Of a stretch of DNA of 64,000 nt, positions 92 to 39,051 are shown piece by piece. The position numbers and the translations under genes were made by a program. This stretch comes from a virus. Numbering within the stretch: position 1 is the stretch's first letter; each line of letters begins with the position of its first letter. Location of the stretch: positions 124,001 through 188,000 of the IMG/VR virus record IMGVR_UViG_3300004463_000226. One strand, given 5' to 3'. The notes beneath the pieces are model-generated. The model was not told the DNA's origin, did no database searches, and saw only the letters and a list, made by a program, of their open reading frames with translations.

Positions 92-146
92 ATGTAAAAA
101 AATGAGAGAATTAGCTATAGGAACTTTATCCTTAGCTAATTCTCTC
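92..146 (-). terminator. Terminator after the primase gene
   Basis: A 14-bp perfect inverted repeat (104-117 with 133-146), extended inward by AGGA/TCCT, is followed on the minus strand by a run of seven T. The right arm overlaps the primase stop codon. It ends the leftward operon that contains the AAA ATPase and primase. Bases 1-91 hold no gene I can support. Confidence 0.85.
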
Positions 147-1169
147 TTTGTAAATTTTTATGTCTTTCTTAGGAAATCCATAATCTTTTTTCTTCTCATT
201 ATAGAATAGATTAACTTTGTTAACCCATGGACTTATTTCTTTTTCAAGAGCCTTATAGAAACCAGGATGCCTATCATTATCTGAATAAATATTTACGTCC
301 ACATTATCTATAACACCCATCTTAATAAAATACTTTATAACTGTAATGTAACCAGCACCACACATAGCTGAATAAATCATGTTTTTCTTTTCTTTGTTGT
401 ACAGGTGATAGTAAACACCGAGTATATCAAAGACACCTTCTGCCATATTAATGGTTATTTTCTTATTAGTGAGTAGATCTACTTGGTTAGGAATTGTATA
501 GAACTTTCTAGTATTATCTAGGTTCTTAAAGATACTATATTTCTCATATCTTTTATACGGGGATTCATAAACTTGTCTGAAGTTTATGAATTCATTTTTT
601 GACGTCAAGAATCCTAGATAATCATCATGTAGTGCTTTAGCCTTCTTAGGATCAACTGTTAGTCTCTCAATATCATTATATTTAAGAAACTGTCCTAATT
701 GGAATATTGATTTAAGTTCTACCATTTCCTCAAATGTAGTTTTTATTCCTAATCTACTCTCAAAGTATTTCTTCTTGAATATGTTTCTTGCATCATCTGG
801 ATCTGGTGATGGTACTTTGAAATCAAATTCATTATTAATAACTCCAAGATGATATTTCATATTCTTCATAGCCACTTTATTATAACGTATAAGTCCACTA
901 TTTAAACTTAAATCATTGATATCTAATGAACGTAATACAGAAGGTGTGAGGATACCTGATGTATCGCACCTATGGCACATAAACAATACAGGTTCATCCT
1001 CACTCATATTTACCTTGATATACAAATGCGTACTCTCAGCGCTTTTACGACTATCACCACAGAATGTACAACGAATAGCAACGAGGGAATCGTTGACTTT
1101 GTGTCTTGGATGTATACCCATCAACTCTTCCCATAATGCTATCTTAAACTCTTCTGTGTTAGTTCTCAT
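132..1169 (-). CDS. DnaG-type DNA primase (zinc finger plus TOPRIM)
   Basis: Predicted primase that makes RNA primers for phage DNA replication. The N-terminus has a zinc-binding finger, CTFC at residues 34-37 and CHRC at 65-68. A TOPRIM-like region follows near residues 240-305, with the acidic EGVFD motif (E244) and the DND motif (297-299) that bind metal in DnaG and T7 gp4 primases. At 345 residues it is compact and has no helicase domain. Its ATG overlaps the stop of the upstream AAA ATPase gene as TAATG, so the two are probably translationally coupled. Zinc finger and TOPRIM motifs are seen directly; the primase role is inferred from the family. Confidence 0.8.
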   Translation of the reverse strand: MRTNTEEFKIALWEELMGIHPRHKVNDSLVAIRCTFCGDSRKSAESTHLYIKVNMSEDEPVLFMCHRCDTSGILTPSVLRSLDINDLSLNSGLIRYNKVAMKNMKYHLGVINNEFDFKVPSPDPDDARNIFKKKYFESRLGIKTTFEEMVELKSIFQLGQFLKYNDIERLTVDPKKAKALHDDYLGFLTSKNEFINFRQVYESPYKRYEKYSIFKNLDNTRKFYTIPNQVDLLTNKKITINMAEGVFDILGVYYHLYNKEKKNMIYSAMCGAGYITVIKYFIKMGVIDNVDVNIYSDNDRHPGFYKALEKEISPWVNKVNLFYNEKKKDYGFPKKDIKIYKERIS

Positions 1170-2973: not shown

Positions 2974-3072
2974 TAAGTCACCTCCTATGTTTATTTCATA
3001 CATATTCCTCCTATAATAAAGTTGTACCACTTATAAAAAGTAACATCACTAGCAAATGCTAGTGCCATTTTA

Positions 3073-4119
3073 TTAATAATATTCAAGATGTACTTCTCGT
3101 CTAATTCTTTGTGCGTCGTTAAAGCACATTCTACATGCATTCATAAACCACGCATCATCAAGTCCCATTTCTTTATATGGAACTTTTATTATGACTATAT
3201 CATTGGCGGAATTTATCTTAATCTGCTCTCTTAATTGATCAATAGTTAAATCAAACATCTCTGGTTTCCAGCACAATCCTTGCTCTTGCATTCTAAATCC
3301 AAATGCAGCAGATTCATTTGTTTCAGGATCTCCTAATGTAGTTGTAAATATTCTACATGGTTTTATACCTGAAGTTTTTTCATTACGCATCTTGTACATA
3401 GCAGGAGCAGATGATTCAATAATCTCACCAACAAAAGGTATGTGCTCAAAGTCGTCAAAGTACTGAATAGTACCCACCGCTTCATTACCCATTTGCTCAG
3501 CAGTTTCTCTATCCTTAGGATTCTCAATCTGTCTAATAACATTGCGCGATAAGAAGTTTTCCATAGTTGTTCTTTTATGGACTACCATATTCATAATGGT
3601 AGACAGATAGTCAGGAAGTATTGCTACTTGGCTAAGAGTCCTAGACATATTATTATAAAACCCACTAAACGAAGAAGCCATGTATCTAAACTCAGTAGTA
3701 GTGCCACCAAACATAAATAACCAGTGAAGTAAGGTATTGTAACTCGCCCTCCTATATGTTTGATATGGATATACAGAATAATGATCAATACCATTTAACG
3801 TGCAATAGATTGAAGCAAGATTTGCTAAGTGTAGTACGAATGGTGTTCCTCCTTCACCACCTTGTTCAGGTATAGCAACACATTCACGTAAATAATACCA
3901 TGGATTAATAATTATTTCTTGGATAATCTTTTGCTTTGTTTCAATGCTAAGATTATCATCAAATGGATTGACATACTGTAAGCTAGGATCATATAACTTT
4001 AGGAAAAACATATTGTTTTTAACACCCATGTCCTTAAGTTTAATGCTTAACTTAAGAAAAGATTCATTGGTAGTGTTAATTTGATAAACAAATCTTTTTG
4101 TCCTATTCAATTTCTCCAC
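3073..4119 (-). CDS. Degenerate large-terminase paralogue (ATPase half only, Walker A lost)
   Basis: The 348 residues align along their length with the first about 357 residues of the intact large terminase at 36982-39051. Shared landmarks are NNMFFLKLYD, INPWY.LRECV.IPEQGG and the GIDHY segment. The Walker A box PRQKGKTQS of the terminase is PYQTYRRAS here, so the essential GKT is gone. The Walker B acid pair DE is DD, and the coupling motif TSTPGD is TTTLGD. The whole C-terminal nuclease domain is missing, with the protein ending just where the ATPase domain ends. The reading frame is otherwise open and has its own start, so it looks like a retained gene rather than a decaying one. It could dimerise with, dock to or inhibit the packaging motor. 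Homology is seen directly; function is inference. Confidence 0.8.
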   Translation of the reverse strand: MEKLNRTKRFVYQINTTNESFLKLSIKLKDMGVKNNMFFLKLYDPSLQYVNPFDDNLSIETKQKIIQEIIINPWYYLRECVAIPEQGGEGGTPFVLHLANLASIYCTLNGIDHYSVYPYQTYRRASYNTLLHWLFMFGGTTTEFRYMASSFSGFYNNMSRTLSQVAILPDYLSTIMNMVVHKRTTMENFLSRNVIRQIENPKDRETAEQMGNEAVGTIQYFDDFEHIPFVGEIIESSAPAMYKMRNEKTSGIKPCRIFTTTLGDPETNESAAFGFRMQEQGLCWKPEMFDLTIDQLREQIKINSANDIVIIKVPYKEMGLDDAWFMNACRMCFNDAQRIRREVHLEYY

Positions 4120-4158: not shown

Positions 4159-4641
4159 TTATTCATATATTGGTATATATTTTTTAGCAGCACACTCTTT
4201 TTCATAATCATGTCTCAGGTACACAAGAATATCACGTATGTACTTATCAGATTTTCCTTTCTTTTGAAGTGCGTTATTGACATCTTCCCTATCTTTATAA
4301 CCTTGAGTGACTAGATAATCATTAAAAGTAAACTTCTCTTCTTCCTTAACAGATTCTTCTTTGGTCTCTTCTATCTCAACATCGGATTTATATCCGTTGT
4401 TTAATACTCCTACAACAATATTCATGCAAGTAATAACTTCCCACTCCTTCTCACCCCAATTAAATCTCTCAGCAAATTCTTTCTTTATACCTTCAGGAAT
4501 TTCTGGGCTATTAGAATCTTCATCAGTACCATTCCAACCAACAACTATACCATACAGGAAAGCATCTAATTCATTTTGTCCGAAATCCTTAGCTCCGAAA
4601 ACAATCTTGTCTTTAATACGATCAATCATGTTCATTCTCAT
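4159..4641 (-). CDS. Hypothetical protein
   Basis: Unrecognised 160-residue protein with a helical N-terminal part, an acidic lysine/glutamate linker around residues 90-105 and a charged C-terminal segment with the look of a small helical domain. It overlaps the 3' end of the upstream gene by 20 bases. Three in-frame ATGs (4641, 4635, 4629) follow AAGGAG; the one at 4635 has the best spacing, so the true product may start with MNMIDRI. Confidence 0.65.
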   Translation of the reverse strand: MRMNMIDRIKDKIVFGAKDFGQNELDAFLYGIVVGWNGTDEDSNSPEIPEGIKKEFAERFNWGEKEWEVITCMNIVVGVLNNGYKSDVEIEETKEESVKEEEKFTFNDYLVTQGYKDREDVNNALQKKGKSDKYIRDILVYLRHDYEKECAAKKYIPIYE

Positions 4642-4849
4642 TTTCTCCTTCAGTAATCTCTAATGTAACAGTATGAGTGTATTCACCATCATTAATAGCT
4701 ATTGTTTTACCATTGATAAATTCTTGAAGCTGCTCTTGAGTCATCTTTAGAGTATCAGCACCCCAGCCTTGCTTATGAAATTCATTAATTGCTTCATCAG
4801 TACTCTCTATCATTTCAACTGTTGATAATTCAGAAGTATCTATTCTCAT
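4622..4849 (-). CDS. Small acidic hypothetical protein
   Basis: A 75-residue acidic protein of unknown function, preceded by GAGGAG seven bases before the ATG. No motif is recognised. It is the middle gene of a tight three-gene run (4159-5308) and its 3' end overlaps the next gene, which suggests co-translation. Confidence 0.65.
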   Translation of the reverse strand: MRIDTSELSTVEMIESTDEAINEFHKQGWGADTLKMTQEQLQEFINGKTIAINDGEYTHTVTLEITEGENENEHD

Positions 4850-4864
4850 TTTAATATCTCCTCA

Positions 4865-5308
4865 TTAATGTATTATAACTCCATCATTTGAATTGCTCAG
4901 TAAATGAATAATGTCTATTGCTTTAGAAATACTCATATTCATTTCATGTATATCTCCTCCTTTTTCAACAACTTCCTGATACATGTTTTTATTCTCAAGA
5001 ACATATTCCAGACCAGCACGAAGAACATTACTAAACGCCCAGATAAAAGTATTTTGTGCATTCAATCTAGATATATATAGACAGATTGGTTTATATAACT
5101 TATATTCTTCAGTAACACCTTTTTCATAATACCCGAACTTCATTGTAAACAGCATAGACTTTCCTTCTTTAGTTGTTATTTTAACAACCTCTTCCAATAT
5201 AGAGCCAGTGGGTATTAGATCTCTCCTAACTCGTATAAATAGTTCCCCTTTCTTATCTGAACCAACAGATATTGTAGTAAGAATCTCGCTCGAAATTCTT
5301 TCATTCAT
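4865..5308 (-). CDS. Hypothetical protein, first gene of an operon
   Basis: Unrecognised 147-residue protein with a probable beta-rich first half and helical second half. It is the first gene after the TATATATTATA-N4-GGTA promoter element and after the terminator of the gene to its right, so it heads the transcript running left toward the terminase paralogue, AAA ATPase and primase. The start has TTAGGAGG upstream. No function can be proposed. Confidence 0.7.
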   Translation of the reverse strand: MNERISSEILTTISVGSDKKGELFIRVRRDLIPTGSILEEVVKITTKEGKSMLFTMKFGYYEKGVTEEYKLYKPICLYISRLNAQNTFIWAFSNVLRAGLEYVLENKNMYQEVVEKGGDIHEMNMSISKAIDIIHLLSNSNDGVIIH

Positions 5309-5335: not shown

Positions 5336-5354
5336 TACCTTAATATAATATATA
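5336..5354 (-). promoter_or_regulatory. Putative non-late promoter TATATATTATA-N4-GGTA
   Basis: On the minus strand the sequence is TATATATTATA, four bases, then GGTA, ending 28 bases before the ATG at 5308. The same composite motif with the same spacing precedes the genes starting at 18731, 20090 and 21442. Confidence 0.6.
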
Positions 5355-5356
5355 AT

Positions 5357-5393
5357 AAAAAAGGTTATTAAATGGGATGACTTGCGTCATCCC
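5357..5393 (-). terminator. Terminator with GCAA tetraloop
   Basis: An 8-bp perfect stem (5374-5381 with 5386-5393) closes a GCAA loop on the minus strand, followed about ten bases later by six T. It ends the gene at 5402-6883. Confidence 0.75.
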
Positions 5394-5401
5394 CCACTTA
5401 T

Positions 5402-6883
5402 TTATAACTGATTTAAGAAGTTCAAAAACTCATCCGATAATATGTCTGGATTATGAACTTCTAGCTTGTCCCCGAGCTTATCATCATTATCATAATCTAC
5501 AATTGTGAAAGTTGTATTTATAATTGTAGATAGTAGATTTAAGATGAGATTAGATTTCTTTAATTCTTCTAGTGTAGAAAACTTTTCATTCACTAGAGTT
5601 TGATAGATCGCTGAGTTCTCAATTTTCATTAAGAACTTTTGATTCTGAATTGTACGTTTGTTTAACTTCTCTACATTACCAGTCAGAATTTCTGGTAAAT
5701 ATACTAAACCTTGAAGCTGTAGTCTTCTCTTAAGCAATACTAACAACTTCAGATATTGTTTTCGTGTTAATAGATTAAGGTCACGATATCCACCGAAATA
5801 TTTTGCATAATAGTAATAAACCAATTGCACTTGGAATTTATTAATCTTATGATGCTTTTTATAGAATTCAATTTCCTCTTTCGGGATATCAATATTCATA
5901 GACTTCTTAATCATTTTGATTGTGTTTTTGATATTGATGTTTGATAAGATGACAAGTGATTCATCAATCTTATACGAGTTCATCTCCAGTTTATCTAATC
6001 CTGATAAACCTTCAGAATCTTTCTTACTGTCTAGCTGAACCAACGTGTGTTCATAAGGCTCAATAATAAAATAGCCTAGCTGACGTTCGATAACTACAGC
6101 GTTGAAGTGAATGATGTTGCTATCAAATCTGTATTTAAACATAGTCTCAGAAATGATCTTCTCTTTCAACATTTCATCTGCTTTTGTCAGTGTGTCTTCA
6201 CCTAAGATTTCACGTTGCTCCCAGATTAGGCGGTTCTTTGAAAAGCTGTTTTTAACTTTAGCCTGGATAGTAATCCATAGTTTGTTATAGATATCAATAT
6301 CTTCCGAATACATATAGAAGAGTTTTTCATAGAAGTTGAATAAAGGAACATCTTTGCCAATGTTGTAAGTATTGATATAATGAAACAGTATCGGCACCAT
6401 TATTTTCATAGACACAGATATCTTCATCATAATCTTAGCATGGTCGTTAGTGAATTCTAGTTGTTCTGTATATCTCTTACCATCCTTAGATGTTAGGTCA
6501 TAGAAATGGTTATCTTCAACCATATTAGATATCTTTTCCTGCATAGAATCTGTAAACACAATACTATACATGGCTTTGATAAATGCTGTAGGCGACTTGA
6601 TCTTTGTCTTCTTATTGTCAATAAGAAACTTCATTTTCAAGTAAGCCATGACTAGCTCTTTTTCTTGGTCATAGAAATTAATGAAGTAATTAATGTAATT
6701 CGTTATATCCCCTAAACGTTTTACATAAGATTCCTTCTTGATTACAAATGTTTTAATTGCACTGATATCTTGTTGATAGATCTCCTCAAATGGAATGATG
6801 ACTAGCTTACCATCATAGTAAACGTATTTCTGGTCATCGCGTGGTTTCCAGCTATCAACTCTACATATAATTTCTTTATCCAT
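5402..6883 (-). CDS. Hypothetical protein, about 493 residues
   Basis: Large unrecognised protein, strongly helical and lysine-rich, with no Walker, zinc or membrane motif that I can see. It is a single-gene unit ended by its own terminator, with an AT-rich TATATATTATA element (6925-6935) upstream. I prefer the ATG at 6883 over in-frame TTG/GTG codons at 6889-6898, though AAGAGG suits the latter better. Its size is near that of the promoter-recognition subunit of the AR9 non-virion RNA polymerase, but I see no sequence evidence for that; it is only a hypothesis to test. Confidence 0.7.
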   Translation of the reverse strand: MDKEIICRVDSWKPRDDQKYVYYDGKLVIIPFEEIYQQDISAIKTFVIKKESYVKRLGDITNYINYFINFYDQEKELVMAYLKMKFLIDNKKTKIKSPTAFIKAMYSIVFTDSMQEKISNMVEDNHFYDLTSKDGKRYTEQLEFTNDHAKIMMKISVSMKIMVPILFHYINTYNIGKDVPLFNFYEKLFYMYSEDIDIYNKLWITIQAKVKNSFSKNRLIWEQREILGEDTLTKADEMLKEKIISETMFKYRFDSNIIHFNAVVIERQLGYFIIEPYEHTLVQLDSKKDSEGLSGLDKLEMNSYKIDESLVILSNINIKNTIKMIKKSMNIDIPKEEIEFYKKHHKINKFQVQLVYYYYAKYFGGYRDLNLLTRKQYLKLLVLLKRRLQLQGLVYLPEILTGNVEKLNKRTIQNQKFLMKIENSAIYQTLVNEKFSTLEELKKSNLILNLLSTIINTTFTIVDYDNDDKLGDKLEVHNPDILSDEFLNFLNQL

Positions 6884-6924
6884 TATCCCCAACACCAACC
6901 TCTTGAATTGATTAATTGCATATC

Positions 6925-6935
6925 TATAATATATA
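6925..6935 (-). promoter_or_regulatory. AT-rich promoter-like element
   Basis: TATATATTATA on the minus strand, 41 bases upstream of the ATG at 6883. It matches the core of the non-late promoter motif but lacks the GGTA box, so it is a weaker candidate. Confidence 0.4.
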
Positions 6936-6938
6936 TTT

Positions 6939-7866: not shown

Positions 7867-9594
7867 TTAGTTTGTACCTTGGTCAGCTTTAATTGAAATG
7901 TACTGGTTACTGCTCAATAATAATGCAACGATAGACGTAGCAGCACGTAAGATTTCAACATCTGTATGACAAGGGTTAATTACATCAGCCGAATAAGTAT
8001 CTGTGATTAAATCATAGCACAGTTCCTTTTCAATGGCTTCATCTACAATTCCATGTAGGAATGCTTCTGGCTCTGTAGTGTATTTTCTACCTAATACTTT
8101 AGTAAATACCTCACAGAAAGCTGCACGTAGAAGCATAAGAATGTTTTGCTCAACGCATACTTCTTTGTATTGTGTTTCAAGAAGATGGTCGATTGCAATA
8201 GGAATAATAAGGTTTCCACCAATATTATATCCATAGTGATAAGCTGATTCACATGCTTTAACAGCATCTTCAACTAGATCATAATTACTTGCTTTTTCAA
8301 GCCCAGATTGTCCACCAACATGAATAACACCCATGATTCCTTTTAGCTTAGATAGACGTTTCTTTACTTCATATAGCTGGGAATCAACGATATTCAACTC
8401 TTGGTGAGTTTGCTCAAGTTTGCTGAACTTAGCGCGAGCATCACGCAATGCTACTTGATACATTTCCTCATTGCGGTTATAGAAACCTCTAATAAGTGTT
8501 GTATCTGGTCCAACAGCAATACTATCTACTTGACCAAGGAATGAAGATATATCTGGTACTTTTTCAGGATCTTCAGAATTAAATGCATATACATCAGTAT
8601 CACGAATAATCATACCACCAGTCATGATAGCAAAATCATTGAACTGTTCTTGGAATAGATTACTTGATAACATAGCGCGTGTATATACAACTGCTGTAGT
8701 TCCATGTTGATGCATTTGTTGATTCGCTTGAGTGCGAATATGGTTAAGCATAAATGAATCGAAGTGTGGTGCAATTACCACTAAGCGACGACCTTCGTGA
8801 ACTGCAAGAGACATTGCTTTATAGATGATTGTATTGTAGTGCGACTCAAGGTCAACCTTATGGTCGAACATTAGAATCAGCGGCTTGTTAATGTTACAGA
8901 TTCCATCATCATTGGTTGCATAGATTGCATCTAGGTACGTAATTAAGGCTTTATAGCCTTCAACGATTTCATATGTAGTCTTTGCAGACCGAGCTTTAAT
9001 GAACTCAATAGATGGATTTTCTGTTTCTTTGTAAATAGTGCGGATGATATCTGAAACCTCAGTATCGCCGTTAGTTGAAATCATCGCTAAACGATAGATT
9101 TCATCAAGATCTGGAGACCCAGCCGCATCAATTTTAGTAGAGCGATTAAGAACTTCGCCTGTAATAGATTCTACTGCACGTTTAAGAGAATCAATTACTT
9201 CTTTAGGGCGAACCTTCTTAAGTTGCTCGCTACTTTCAAGTTTTTTAAGAATAGAGTTAGCTGCTACGATAGAAGATGTACTACCGTCACCAACTTTAAT
9301 TACAACTTGTGCGCTGATATTAACCAGCAGTTGAAGAAGGTTTTGCTCTGTTGGATCGTCAAATGAAATCTTTTTAAGGATATTCCAGCCGTCCTTTGTA
9401 ATATGCATTTCACCGAATTTTTCAATGATAGCTGTAGCACCGTAAGGTCCTAATGTATTAGTTAGCATAGTTGCAACCTGATCAAATACGTTGCGAACGC
9501 GTGCTCTAAATTGGGTCTCTTCAATAACATTCCAGTTTAATGACTTTTTATAGTTTTTTGGTAAAAAAGTTTCACTTAAAGTAGGTTCAGCCAT
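7867..9594 (-). CDS. Phage chaperonin (GroEL/thermosome family)
   Basis: Predicted ring-forming ATP-dependent protein-folding chaperone of 575 residues (GroEL is 548). Nucleotide-binding motifs are present: TLGPYG (47-52), ITKDG (65-69) and GDGSTS (102-107), with the conserved aspartate D103. A C-terminal VEDAVKAC...GGN stretch matches the GroEL VDDA...GGG region, including the catalytic aspartate. The ILKKI..DDP segment reads more like group II chaperonins than GroEL, so it is a divergent member. phiKZ-like and AR9-like jumbo phages carry divergent chaperonins that probably fold abundant phage proteins. GGAGGAG lies eight bases before the ATG. No co-chaperonin gene is visible nearby. Confidence 0.9.
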   Translation of the reverse strand: MAEPTLSETFLPKNYKKSLNWNVIEETQFRARVRNVFDQVATMLTNTLGPYGATAIIEKFGEMHITKDGWNILKKISFDDPTEQNLLQLLVNISAQVVIKVGDGSTSSIVAANSILKKLESSEQLKKVRPKEVIDSLKRAVESITGEVLNRSTKIDAAGSPDLDEIYRLAMISTNGDTEVSDIIRTIYKETENPSIEFIKARSAKTTYEIVEGYKALITYLDAIYATNDDGICNINKPLILMFDHKVDLESHYNTIIYKAMSLAVHEGRRLVVIAPHFDSFMLNHIRTQANQQMHQHGTTAVVYTRAMLSSNLFQEQFNDFAIMTGGMIIRDTDVYAFNSEDPEKVPDISSFLGQVDSIAVGPDTTLIRGFYNRNEEMYQVALRDARAKFSKLEQTHQELNIVDSQLYEVKKRLSKLKGIMGVIHVGGQSGLEKASNYDLVEDAVKACESAYHYGYNIGGNLIIPIAIDHLLETQYKEVCVEQNILMLLRAAFCEVFTKVLGRKYTTEPEAFLHGIVDEAIEKELCYDLITDTYSADVINPCHTDVEILRAATSIVALLLSSNQYISIKADQGTN

Positions 9595-33872: not shown

Positions 33873-33884
33873 AACAATTAATTA
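33873..33884 (+). promoter_or_regulatory. AACA(N6)TA late promoter (major capsid)
   Basis: AACAATTAATTA, 29 bases before the ATG at 33914. Confidence 0.65.
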
Positions 33885-33913
33885 AAAAAATTATAGGAAG
33901 GGTGTGTACTCGA

Positions 33914-35620
33914 ATGTACGATTACCTAGAAGAACAGCAACAATCCAACGTTGTAGGTTCGTTCATTACTGACAGAAACGTTGACTTTAAAGACAATGTT
34001 AAAGCTATGCTTGAGAGTTTCCGTGGAGCTTATTCTATGGATGCTGTTGATGATTTAGTTAAGGTCTTAAAAGTTGACACTTTAAAAGAAGATTACAAAG
34101 AGCGCCTGATGGGTGATGTATTACAAGAGAGCATGGAAGATCCATACCTTGCATTAATGCCTGGCAAATTAGAGCAGCTTTTTGAAAATACTTCTTTAGA
34201 GATTGTTAAAGAGTCCTCTGTAGGGCAGCTTGCTCCTATCGTTGGTTTATCTTTACCAATCTTGAAAAAGAACTACTTGGAGTGTCACTCTAAGGATATC
34301 GTTATGACTGAGGTTCCTTCTAAGCCTATCGTTAAGATTGCGTTTGAGCGTAAATTCTTGAAAGATAAAGCTGGAAATAAACATTATATTCCAGAAATCT
34401 TCTACAATGATGACTATCGCCAAATTCTTGACATGGCTAAAGGAAAACCTATTAGTAACGCTTGGTATCCAACATCTGGCACATTACCAATGCAAGATCT
34501 AAACATTCTTCAATTATCTGGCGGCACAATGGAAACTCGCGACAGTCTTGCTTATGACTTCGTTATCCAAGCTGTTAAAATTGAAGTAACTGGTGCAGGC
34601 GGTCCTGAAATCAAAACAATTTCTGGATTATCTATTGCTCCTGATATGGCTGCTAACGGTGCATTTACTTACCGTGTTAAAGCTGAAAATAATGATGGTA
34701 GCGGCACTTTCGTAGAGGAAGTTTTAACTGGACAAGTTGACTTCTACTATGGTAAAGTTAGCGTTGCATCTACAGGCACAAAAATTAAACAAGTTCAATT
34801 CGGCGGACATCTATCCAACGAAAACAACTTGGAAACGATCGAACTAGATCGTGAACGCGAACAACGCGAGTGGAAAATTCCAGATGGTCACAGAATCAAT
34901 ACAGGTTTGACTATCGAAAAAATCAAGGACTATAAAGCTCTATTCAATCTTGATGTTACTACTGAAGTTATCGCTGATATCTCTCAAGTATTAACTCATA
35001 CTGAAGACGGCGACATTATGGCATTCCTTGACAAATCTTTCAACACTTGGAAAGGTCGCAAAGATCTTCCATTCGGCTACAGCGATGGATTCGTAGAAAG
35101 CTACCAATTCTCTGCACAGCCGCCAATCAATACTTATGTTACTACATCTGCATGGATCCAAACTGAGTTAAAGTTCAACTTAAACCGTGAGCTTGATACT
35201 TTGAAAGAGAAGTTAAAAACTCAGGATATCATGTTCGTAGTATATGGCAACCCTGCCAACATCACATTGATCCAAGAAGATGTAAAATGGATCATTGACG
35301 AGGATACAAAAATCGGCGGCATCCAACTTGACTACAAGTTTGGTGTAATGACTGCCAATAAAAACCGCGTACACGTAGTATCTTCTATGAAGGTAGCTCG
35401 TGACAAAGGTATTCGTATCGTAGCGTTCCCTCTTTCTAAAGAGGTAATCACATTCAAGCATCTTAAATACAGCTTGAACATTGAGAACGTTTACCGTAAC
35501 CCAATGACTCCGCTTATCCCGAACGTAATGGGTACATCCCGTTACTTAACAACTGAAGTGTTGCCAGTACAAGGTGAGTTCATCATCACTAACAACACAT
35601 TCGGTCGTCAAACACTTTAA
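33914..35620 (+). CDS. Major capsid protein
   Basis: 568 residues, predicted HK97-fold shell protein. Reasons: it follows the protease and scaffold candidates, has its own late promoter and a strong terminator, uses codons enriched in C-ending and GC-richer choices as expected of the most abundant protein, and has a helical N-terminal arm (about 1-75) that could be cleaved by the prohead protease. A glycine/threonine-rich beta insertion at about 225-295 may be a surface domain. Start: the ATG at 33914; a GTG at 33902 is in frame but too close to GGAAG. No specific capsid motif can be cited, so the call is context plus composition. Confidence 0.75.
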   Translation: MYDYLEEQQQSNVVGSFITDRNVDFKDNVKAMLESFRGAYSMDAVDDLVKVLKVDTLKEDYKERLMGDVLQESMEDPYLALMPGKLEQLFENTSLEIVKESSVGQLAPIVGLSLPILKKNYLECHSKDIVMTEVPSKPIVKIAFERKFLKDKAGNKHYIPEIFYNDDYRQILDMAKGKPISNAWYPTSGTLPMQDLNILQLSGGTMETRDSLAYDFVIQAVKIEVTGAGGPEIKTISGLSIAPDMAANGAFTYRVKAENNDGSGTFVEEVLTGQVDFYYGKVSVASTGTKIKQVQFGGHLSNENNLETIELDREREQREWKIPDGHRINTGLTIEKIKDYKALFNLDVTTEVIADISQVLTHTEDGDIMAFLDKSFNTWKGRKDLPFGYSDGFVESYQFSAQPPINTYVTTSAWIQTELKFNLNRELDTLKEKLKTQDIMFVVYGNPANITLIQEDVKWIIDEDTKIGGIQLDYKFGVMTANKNRVHVVSSMKVARDKGIRIVAFPLSKEVITFKHLKYSLNIENVYRNPMTPLIPNVMGTSRYLTTEVLPVQGEFIITNNTFGRQTL

Positions 35621-35735: not shown

Positions 35736-36971
35736 ATGACTGTAATTACTAAAAGTCCAGATATGATATTAATGGAACAAATGTTCACCAACATTAAGTC
35801 TGGTAAAGATGTTGACATTAGCTTAAGAACTATTGAACGGGTTCTAGCACGTAACTTTGGTTTAGAGTTCAATATAACTTTGATTGATAACAAGACGAAG
35901 AATTTCTTTGGTATGAGTGTATATCCTAGTAGAAATTTAATTGATACTATGGTAGATCAAATCATTAATAAGAAAGCTCATTCTGATGTTATTGAGAAGT
36001 TATGGTCTGAAAATAAGAAATGGTATCTTGAAATTGATAGTATACTTGTTAACGACCCTTCATTAAATGCAAATCCAGCTGAAATGGTTGCTGTGTTATT
36101 GCATGAGGTTGGTCATGTAACTCAATCTAATAGAATCCCTTCTCGGATTCATAAAGTATTGAGATATGAAATAATGCAGTTATCATTATCTATGAAGAAA
36201 TTAATTAAATGGAAAAAGTGTCAAATTCTTTTTGACTTAATCTTCGCTGAGGCATGTGGATCTAAAAACTTCAGTTTACATCGTGAAATTGAAGCTGATA
36301 AATTCGCTGCTAAATTTGGCTATGGTGAGAATCTTCGTCAGTTTATTGAGAAGCTATTAACTACTCAAGGTAACTCGATGATTGATCGTAGTGAGACAGA
36401 TATGGAAAAAGATGTTAAAGCAATTGTTACATGGACATTTGTTAATATCAGTGAGCTTGAATATCGTAAGACTAAATTACGTGAAATGCTTCAGACTGAA
36501 ATTTTACAGAGTCCTAGTAAATATATCCGTAATCTTGTATTCAATATTAAAACTGTATTCTTCGGTGGCAGTGACGAAAACAGTTATAAGGAAATTATCA
36601 ATGAACAGTATCTTGTTCAACAGCACCAATCTATTGTCAAAGAGGGTCTACTCGACTTATTTGATAAATACGGTAAATTGAAAAAGATCACTCAGAGTGA
36701 TATTGATATCATTCAAATAGAGAAAGACCGTATCTCAAATGAAGATGATAAAATCTATGTATTAGATCTTATCTATGACAAACTGGATCAAATCAATGCA
36801 GGCTTACAACTCATTGATCAAAATAAAAAGGACAAAGTCGTAGTATCTAAAGATAGACTCAATGGATACAAAACACAACTAGAGAAACTTCGTAAAGAAG
36901 TGTTGGCAACTAAGATTAAGGAAAAACAGTACGGCTTATTCGTCCAATATCCTGTAGGATATGAAGGGTAG
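35736..36971 (+). CDS. Zinc metalloprotease (HEVGH, M48-like) in the head gene cluster
   Basis: 411 residues. HEVGH at 123-127 is a classic HExxH zinc site; REIEAD at 183-188 supplies a likely third ligand (E184), a spacing and context like M48/HtpX-type gluzincins (E..AD). The C-terminal half is helical and lacks motifs. No signal peptide is seen, so it acts inside the cell or in the virion. It lies between the capsid and large terminase genes, an unusual spot for a protease other than the prohead one. Host-protein cleavage, virion maturation or peptidoglycan-associated work are possible. GGAAG precedes the ATG. Confidence 0.75.
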   Translation: MTVITKSPDMILMEQMFTNIKSGKDVDISLRTIERVLARNFGLEFNITLIDNKTKNFFGMSVYPSRNLIDTMVDQIINKKAHSDVIEKLWSENKKWYLEIDSILVNDPSLNANPAEMVAVLLHEVGHVTQSNRIPSRIHKVLRYEIMQLSLSMKKLIKWKKCQILFDLIFAEACGSKNFSLHREIEADKFAAKFGYGENLRQFIEKLLTTQGNSMIDRSETDMEKDVKAIVTWTFVNISELEYRKTKLREMLQTEILQSPSKYIRNLVFNIKTVFFGGSDENSYKEIINEQYLVQQHQSIVKEGLLDLFDKYGKLKKITQSDIDIIQIEKDRISNEDDKIYVLDLIYDKLDQINAGLQLIDQNKKDKVVVSKDRLNGYKTQLEKLRKEVLATKIKEKQYGLFVQYPVGYEG

Positions 36972-36981
36972 GTAATCGAAT

Positions 36982-39051
36982 ATGGTGGAGACTCCTAAAC
37001 AAAAGCGACGACCGTTTATTTATCACATTAAAACAAGAAATATTTCTTTCTTACAAACAGCTCGTGACTTAAAAGCTTTAGGTATTAAGAACAACATGTT
37101 CTTCTTAAAGCTTTATGATACGTCATTAGAATTTGTAGATCCTCATTCACCACATCTAACACACGAACAAACACTAAGAGTTATCAATGAATGTATTATC
37201 AATCCTTGGTATTTCTTACGTGAATGTGTTCGTATACCTGAGCAAGGCGGTAATGGTATCCCGTATCAATTACACCGTGCTAACTTAGCAGCAACTTTTT
37301 GTTTCTTGATGGGTATTGACCATTATTTGGTAATTCCTCGTCAGAAAGGTAAGACACAATCAACTGTTTCTTCTTTAAATTGGGCATTCCTATTCGGTAC
37401 TACAAGTTCCGAGTTCATGTTTATCAATAAACGTCAAGAGGATGCTAATAACAACCTTGACCGTCTAAAACAACAACGGGAATTACTCCCTTCATATATG
37501 CGTATGAAGGAGATTATTAACGATGACGGTAAACGTGAAGTAGGTCAAGATAACGTTAAGTCTATCACGAACCCTACAACAGGTAACAAAATTGTTACTA
37601 AACCTTCTGCCCGTTCTGTAGAAGCTGCTGAGGGATTAGGACGTGGTTGCACTCAACCAATTCAGTATTATGATGAGACCGAATTTACTCCGTTCATCAA
37701 AACAATTATTGAGGCTGCTGGTCCAGCATACAATACTGCATCGGCTAACGCTAGACGAAACAATGCGGCATATTGCCGTATCTTCACATCAACTCCTGGT
37801 GACTTAGATACACAGCCAGGGCAAGACTGTGCTCTTATCATTAATGAAACTTGTAAATGGACCGAGCAATTCTATGACTGGTCTAGAGATGATATTGAAG
37901 ATTACATTGCTAAAAACTCTGGTAATGGTATTGTCTATATCGAATACCAATACCAACAACTAGGTGATGATGAAGAATGGTTCAAACGTACTTGTCAAAC
38001 CCTATTAAATAACCCTGCTAAAATTAAGCGTGAAATTTTCTTACAACGTATGCGTGGTTCTTCTGAATCTCCATTTGAAACTGAAGATCTAAATGCTGTA
38101 CAGGAGTTAAAAGGTAAAGTATTAGAAGAAATCTTTATTAATAAATTATTCAAGTTAGATATTTATGAAAAACTTGATAGAAATAAAGTATACCTAGCTG
38201 GTATGGACTGTGCTGGAGGTCTTGGTGAGGATAATACTGCTATTACAGTAATTGATCCTTATACATTGAAACCTGTAGCTGAATTTAAATCTCCATACAT
38301 TGGTATACCTGATGCTGTTAAATTTGTACGTACAATGATTAGAAAATACATCCCTAGATGTATTATGGCTATAGAGCGAAATAACGTTGGTACAGCTATT
38401 ATTGACGGTCTTCGTGAAACAGATGTACGTGCTAATATTTACTTTGATGATTCTAAAGATTTCATTGAAGTTGATGATAAATTAGATCCGCAAGGATTCT
38501 TAGCTAGACAAGCGGCTAGACGTAAACTATACGGTGTATGGACTGGTCCTAAATCCCGTGATATCATGTTTACTATTCTAGAAGCTCATATGGCTGAATA
38601 CAAAGATAAGTTCGTTACTGAGAATATTATCAATGACTTAGTGAGTCTTATCCGTAAAAAGAATGGACGTATTGAACATGCACCAGGATTCCATGATGAC
38701 TCATTATTCTCATATCTAATTGGTCTCTATGTTTACTATCATGGTAAGAATCTACATAGATTCGGATTCGTTAGAGGTCAATTACCTGATGAAGAGCAAC
38801 AAAATAAGGGATTAACTTATGAAGAAATCTTTAATGAAATGCCTGAAGAAATGAAACAAGCTTTTGCTAACTTTAGTGTTAAAACTGAAGATGATTACAG
38901 TGCTAAGATACGGGCTGAGATAGATGCTGCTAGAAGAGAAGTTCAGTATGTAAATTCTATTCTTAAACCTACGAATCTGGCTGAAAACTTTGATGAGCTT
39001 GAATATGAAGCAGATATACCATTAAGTTTCTTCGATGATTTAAATAATTAG
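36982..39051 (+). CDS. terL: Terminase large subunit (packaging ATPase and nuclease)
   Basis: 689-residue DNA-packaging motor. Walker A is PRQKGKT (119-125), Walker B IQYYDE (227-232) with catalytic E232, and the coupling motif is TSTPGD (269-274). The RNase H-like nuclease follows with acidic residues in GMDCAGG (D409), AIERNN (E465) and a FHDDSL motif further on. A degenerate copy of the ATPase half is at 3073-4119. No small-terminase gene is recognised nearby. The gene sits just downstream of the metalloprotease and is ended by the terminator at 39051. Confidence 0.95.
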   Translation: MVETPKQKRRPFIYHIKTRNISFLQTARDLKALGIKNNMFFLKLYDTSLEFVDPHSPHLTHEQTLRVINECIINPWYFLRECVRIPEQGGNGIPYQLHRANLAATFCFLMGIDHYLVIPRQKGKTQSTVSSLNWAFLFGTTSSEFMFINKRQEDANNNLDRLKQQRELLPSYMRMKEIINDDGKREVGQDNVKSITNPTTGNKIVTKPSARSVEAAEGLGRGCTQPIQYYDETEFTPFIKTIIEAAGPAYNTASANARRNNAAYCRIFTSTPGDLDTQPGQDCALIINETCKWTEQFYDWSRDDIEDYIAKNSGNGIVYIEYQYQQLGDDEEWFKRTCQTLLNNPAKIKREIFLQRMRGSSESPFETEDLNAVQELKGKVLEEIFINKLFKLDIYEKLDRNKVYLAGMDCAGGLGEDNTAITVIDPYTLKPVAEFKSPYIGIPDAVKFVRTMIRKYIPRCIMAIERNNVGTAIIDGLRETDVRANIYFDDSKDFIEVDDKLDPQGFLARQAARRKLYGVWTGPKSRDIMFTILEAHMAEYKDKFVTENIINDLVSLIRKKNGRIEHAPGFHDDSLFSYLIGLYVYYHGKNLHRFGFVRGQLPDEEQQNKGLTYEEIFNEMPEEMKQAFANFSVKTEDDYSAKIRAEIDAARREVQYVNSILKPTNLAENFDELEYEADIPLSFFDDLNN

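Follow-up and report, generated by a model that had tools for sequence, protein, structure and literature searches.

Why would a phage whose own large terminase (TerL) is intact, with ATPase and nuclease, also carry the gene of a second, truncated TerL in which the ATP-binding motif is destroyed? The gene lies in the window, by which we mean the whole 64,000-nucleotide stretch analysed here (124001-188000 in the 234,335 bases of a virus record from an uncultured phage). Its frame is on the minus strand, a detail that we add to the original prediction; stops abound there on the plus strand (Table 1). The product, P0002, starts at a GTG, or at a TTG three codons in, and AAAGGGAG lies just ahead of the start. 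The frame is unbroken across 348 codons. Homology to the phage's own TerL across the ATPase domain, as claimed at first, was recovered by BLASTP over residues 1-346 with 38% identity and 56% positives (E 2e-80). PHROGs placed both proteins under terminase large subunit, with named matches to TerL only and thus none to a TerS family; P0002 had no match in Pfam, and PADLOC gave chance-level hits only.

The motif losses predicted from the sequence were borne out by the alignments, in which PRQKGKTQS of the own TerL is replaced by PYQTYRRAS in P0002 (GKT to YRR), and YYDE by YFDD (DE to DD). In all 39 aligned TerLs the Lys of Walker A is kept, with Thr or Ser after it, S6 alone having YKT instead of GKT; the catalytic Glu is likewise present in 39 of 39. 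The P0002 chain stops where the own TerL passes from the ATPase to the nuclease domain, and tblastn found no nuclease-domain remnant near the gene, in agreement with the predicted absence of that domain. An AlphaFold2 model of P0002 (pLDDT 91.5, pTM 0.90) has the TerL ATPase fold intact; its alignment held 34 window and IMG/VR sequences, mostly TerLs, and hence the model leans on TerLs. In Foldseek searches of the PDB the top match was the ATPase domain of T4 gp17 (2o0j, E 3e-12, TM 0.57), and P74-26 TerL (TM about 0.63 by target) and the terminase within the Avs3 complex 8dgc were also matched; in BFVD the model matched large terminases (TM 0.9). P0002 is thus like the TerL ATPase domains of T4 gp17 and of its own phage in homology, fold and approximate length, whereas it differs from them in lacking the Walker A GK(T/S) with its Lys and Thr, the catalytic Glu and the RNase H-like nuclease, and in being predicted as early instead of late. 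With these residues lost, P0002 probably neither binds nor hydrolyses ATP.

Table 1. Features around the paralogue gene and the terL locus of the window
Feature	Position	Strand	Basis or remark
DNA primase, phrog_19847	132..1169	-	other side of the RNA polymerase-primase interval
Intrinsic-terminator-like hairpin CACTAGCATTTGCTAGTG with T-rich tail	3047..3064	-	sequence; just past the paralogue stop codon
P0002 (348 aa), TerL ATPase-domain paralogue, Walker-dead and without nuclease	3073..4119	-	homology to own TerL; AlphaFold2/Foldseek
Former Walker B/catalytic pair, DD replacing DE	3451..3456	-	alignments; coordinates from sequence
Former Walker A, PYQTYRR replacing PRQKGKT	3748..3768	-	alignments; coordinates from sequence
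160-aa ORF, no family match	4159..4641	-	directly upstream; same predicted early operon
75-aa ORF	4622..4849	-	same predicted early operon
147-aa ORF	4865..5308	-	opens the predicted early operon
Predicted early (virion RNAP) promoter TATTATATATTAT-ATTAAG-G	5338..5357	-	2 mismatches to AR9 consensus
RNA polymerase family protein, phrog_25005	5402..6898	-	conserved pair with primase; paralogue lies between them
Perfect AR9-type early promoter AAATATATATTAT-N6-G	6919..6938	-	ahead of the RNA-polymerase-family gene
AR9-type late promoter AACA-N6-TR	33873..33884	+	PMC5312081 consensus; before the major head protein gene
Major head protein gene	33902..35620	+	followed by zincin gene and terL
Own intact TerL, ATPase and nuclease	36982..39051	+	sequence

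It had also been said that no described phage protein of this kind was known, and a search for relatives with the same lost motif was proposed. Our literature searches found nothing on inactive terminase paralogues, and to that extent the claim stands; P0002 is, however, no singleton. Among records with a terL related to that of the window, truncated Walker-dead TerL paralogues turned up in five or more other lineages of AR9/phiKZ-type jumbo phages, although no close P0002 orthologue was present in the viral contigs or genome contigs of the collections searched. P0003 (327 aa, identical copies in G004, G005 and G009) lies directly upstream of terL, with 4 nt between the end of its gene and the opening of the terL frame. 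P0006/P0007 (299-312 aa; G040, G048, G049 and G051) make up a second lineage in which the copies immediately precede terL; they can be tied to TerL at profile level (hhalign 98.4%, E 8e-15, over the first 200 residues), and an AlphaFold2 model of P0007 is poor past residue 145 (pLDDT 54). P0004 of G059 (345 aa, PRQHHRE) is 52 kb from terL, G084 has a 374-aa copy with VRQQRRV and FYND, and the cultured Vibrio phage vB_pir03 encodes P0005 (QNI21149.1, 321 aa, PRQRGRS), annotated as hypothetical. Three of the paralogues stop at the same ATPase/nuclease border. An annotation as 'terminase large subunit' in a phage of this type may therefore belong to a dead paralogue.

The cultured phages nearest to the window's by TerL are Bacillus phages BpSp, Goe21, AR9 and PBS1 and Staphylococcus phage S6. 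No paralogue was found in the possibly incomplete records of AR9, Goe21, BpSp, S6, SA1, phiKZ, PhiPA3, RAY, PCH45 and LPJP1, nor in those, again possibly incomplete, of the nearest relatives by TerL (G001, terL 68% identical to the window's). Its absence from G001 argues that the paralogue is not an essential part of the motor. The paralogue is patchy in distribution and fast evolving: between G059 and G084 the paralogues are 28% identical and the TerLs 70%, the former thus changing much faster.

Conservation is unevenly spread along the chain. When 51 columns with at least 90% conservation across 34 TerLs were considered, P0002 had the conserved residue at 22 of the 23 that lie ahead of Walker A, but at 1 of the 5 within this motif and at 2 of the 7 that cover the Walker B segment. 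TerL residues N20, F23, L42, E70, N74, W76, R80 and P170 are common to all six paralogues, and all of them except P170 precede Walker A. As judged from these alignments, the block before Walker A is the best kept part of the paralogues and the ATP site is lost. A motif from this N-terminal block, L..VDP.DP.LT.EQK..I..E...N..YF, is shared by jumbo-phage proteins other than TerL, 157-416 aa long, at L285:1816-2289 (gp119 of Pseudomonas phage Noxifer, 157 aa), L286:1835-2311, L287:1262-2437 and L288:2044-3294; in the two longer ones it is near the C-terminal end. A 391-aa protein of G101 is, like gp119, an example. The motif could be a separable binding module, and recurrence of the block in non-TerL phage proteins points to a phage-encoded partner.

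In AR9, early promoters read AAATATATATTAT-N6-G and late promoters AACA-N6-TA/G (PMC5312081). When up to 2 mismatches to the AR9 consensus are allowed, early sites precede 8 of the 75 window genes compared with 0.33 expected from shuffles, and late sites precede 17 of 75 compared with 5.5. With AR9-type motifs so strongly enriched, temporal gene classes become readable in the uncultured phage of the window. A 2-mismatch early site at 5357 (minus) heads four tightly spaced genes, the last of which is the paralogue gene, and a late site stands 29 bases ahead of the start of the head-protein gene. Based on these sites, the window paralogue is predicted to be early and terL late; the terL-adjacent copies of other lineages are presumably late. 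Between the head-protein gene and terL lies an M48-like zinc peptidase gene (35736-36971, plus), a neighbour also seen in AR9 (zincin protease) and G005.

We tentatively read P0002 as a non-catalytic mimic of TerL that has been retained and that, by binding a TerL partner, serves as a packaging regulator or placeholder. It would be a pseudo-ATPase derived long ago from a large terminase, which retained the TerL ATPase fold, lost normal ATP use and DNA cutting, and would act by binding only. It may occupy a partner of the TerL ATPase domain, i.e. the portal, TerL itself or another packaging factor, and the window copy, if made before TerL, could hold that partner until packaging begins. A packaging role is favoured because copies lie next to terL and the N-terminal block is kept. 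In tailed phages the small-terminase (TerS) gene is usually found directly upstream of terL. To our knowledge, a well-recognised small terminase is missing from phiKZ-type jumbo phages, and the start and control of packaging in them are poorly known. The paralogue takes the usual terS position in two other lineages, whereas P0002 itself differs from TerS in having no sequence relation to it, a TerL-derived fold and a location far from terL; in PMC7824862, a classical TerS is described for just the group 2 jumbo phages of that paper. Against a regulator, the window copy is in a predicted early operon away from terL, and the paralogues evolve faster than terL; moreover, this reading presupposes that early and terL-adjacent copies share one function. 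The first interpretation, in which a motor regulator, a placeholder in the packaging ring, a decoy and a defence-related use were all considered, is partly supported, namely in the retention under selection of an ATPase-domain paralogue with a dead active site and no nuclease.

A doubtful but serious alternative is that the early TerL mimic acts as a decoy, binding up a host sensor (AVAST/Avs type) that recognises TerL, or a packaging-hijack protein of a satellite; with the ATP site and nuclease domain absent, such a decoy might conceivably leave the sensor untriggered. Avs1-4 sense the large terminase or the portal (PMC12931631), and Avs3-terminase recognition (PDB 8dgc) shows that the TerL fold is targeted by immunity, which makes a TerL decoy conceivable. 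A decoy is favoured by this sensing together with the predicted early operon, the patchy distribution, the fast evolution and the setting among genes that differ between relatives. However, the likeness of P0002 to the Avs3 system lies in the fold match; P0002 has no known Avs partner, and the phage no known host or Avs locus. Moreover, paralogues directly upstream of terL in other lineages, and a best-kept block that is also found in non-TerL phage proteins, speak against a decoy. Under either the packaging or the decoy reading, the recurring dead twin of TerL is a concrete candidate that can be tested, be it as a motor regulator or as a new type of decoy against TerL-sensing immunity.

It is rather unlikely that the old fold has been repurposed as a scaffold for a different early job, e.g. 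in replication or transcription. Both the window and G059 copies lie between RNA-polymerase-family and primase genes, and Noxifer gp119, which shares the N-terminal motif, adjoins a DnaB helicase gene, as such a job would suggest; but that interval holds assorted, unrelated genes in other phages, and copies are terL-adjacent in two lineages. Synteny was for the same reason rejected as proof of orthology.

Decay of a terL duplicate is very improbable. Closest relatives without a paralogue and fast divergence would fit it, but the gene keeps 348 open codons at 38% identity with 0 stops, whereas neutral point mutation of terL to 39% amino-acid identity left a mean of 17 (minimum 4, 200 runs), and the predicted model is well packed. 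Divergence from terL at the three codon positions is 0.45, 0.42 and 0.61, highest at the third. Because no close P0002 orthologue was found in the collections, dN/dS was taken on P0007, the paralogue next to terL in G048 and G049, which is another member of the group and not a direct orthologue; the ratio is 0.068 (25 synonymous, 8 non-synonymous differences), close to 0.050 for their terL. For G040 and G049, where dS is near saturation, dN/dS is about 0.49 for the paralogue and 0.13 for terL. The original view that the intact frame was kept under selection is upheld, and the broken frames or neutral dN/dS that were to reveal decay in relatives did not appear in the group member compared.

That a split terL gave rise to the gene, as an exon or through misassembly, is hardly credible: interrupted terLs are common in the group, AR9 included, but the own terL is whole and 33 kb away, the two copies are just 38% identical, and interruptions in relatives fall around residues 190-260, not 346. 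The exon-relic reading was rejected on the whole terL, these positions and the missing nuclease remnant. Relatives with an interrupted terL include G010, G018, G025, G026, G041 and G043.

The age of the retained, non-catalytic TerL mimics was addressed with a tree of 38 TerLs and the paralogues with ATP motifs masked; the addition of G084 improved its resolution. In the best tree four paralogues stand apart from 38 of 38 TerLs; the support, 88/92, falls short of the star threshold. AU tests rejected the G005 paralogue within its own terL clade (p 0.001), the G059 and G084 paralogues beside their own terLs (p 0.0135), and the window and G005 paralogues together within the window's terL clade (p 0.03), but did not reject the window paralogue alone with its own terLs (p 0.37) or the G084 paralogue alone with its own terL (p 0.13). 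A single old origin is favoured but not proven, because the branches are long. The paralogues could, with due caution, be seen as an ancient, fast-evolving family of ATP-dead, nuclease-less terminase mimics across AR9/phiKZ-type jumbo phages, used as a second, non-catalytic packaging-motor subunit or as a motor decoy, in the slot that other phages give to a small terminase or to anti-defence proteins.

Like terL, the RNA-polymerase-family gene is interrupted in many relatives, as in L175 and L177, with homing-endonuclease-like ORFs inside (L175:4099-4815, L177:1977-2747). G043 has the RNA-polymerase-family/primase pair twice (C1:6745-9297 and 234081-236611), by real duplication or chimeric assembly. 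The window also encodes a GroEL-type chaperonin (phrog_5725, Cpn60) at 7867-9594 on the minus strand.
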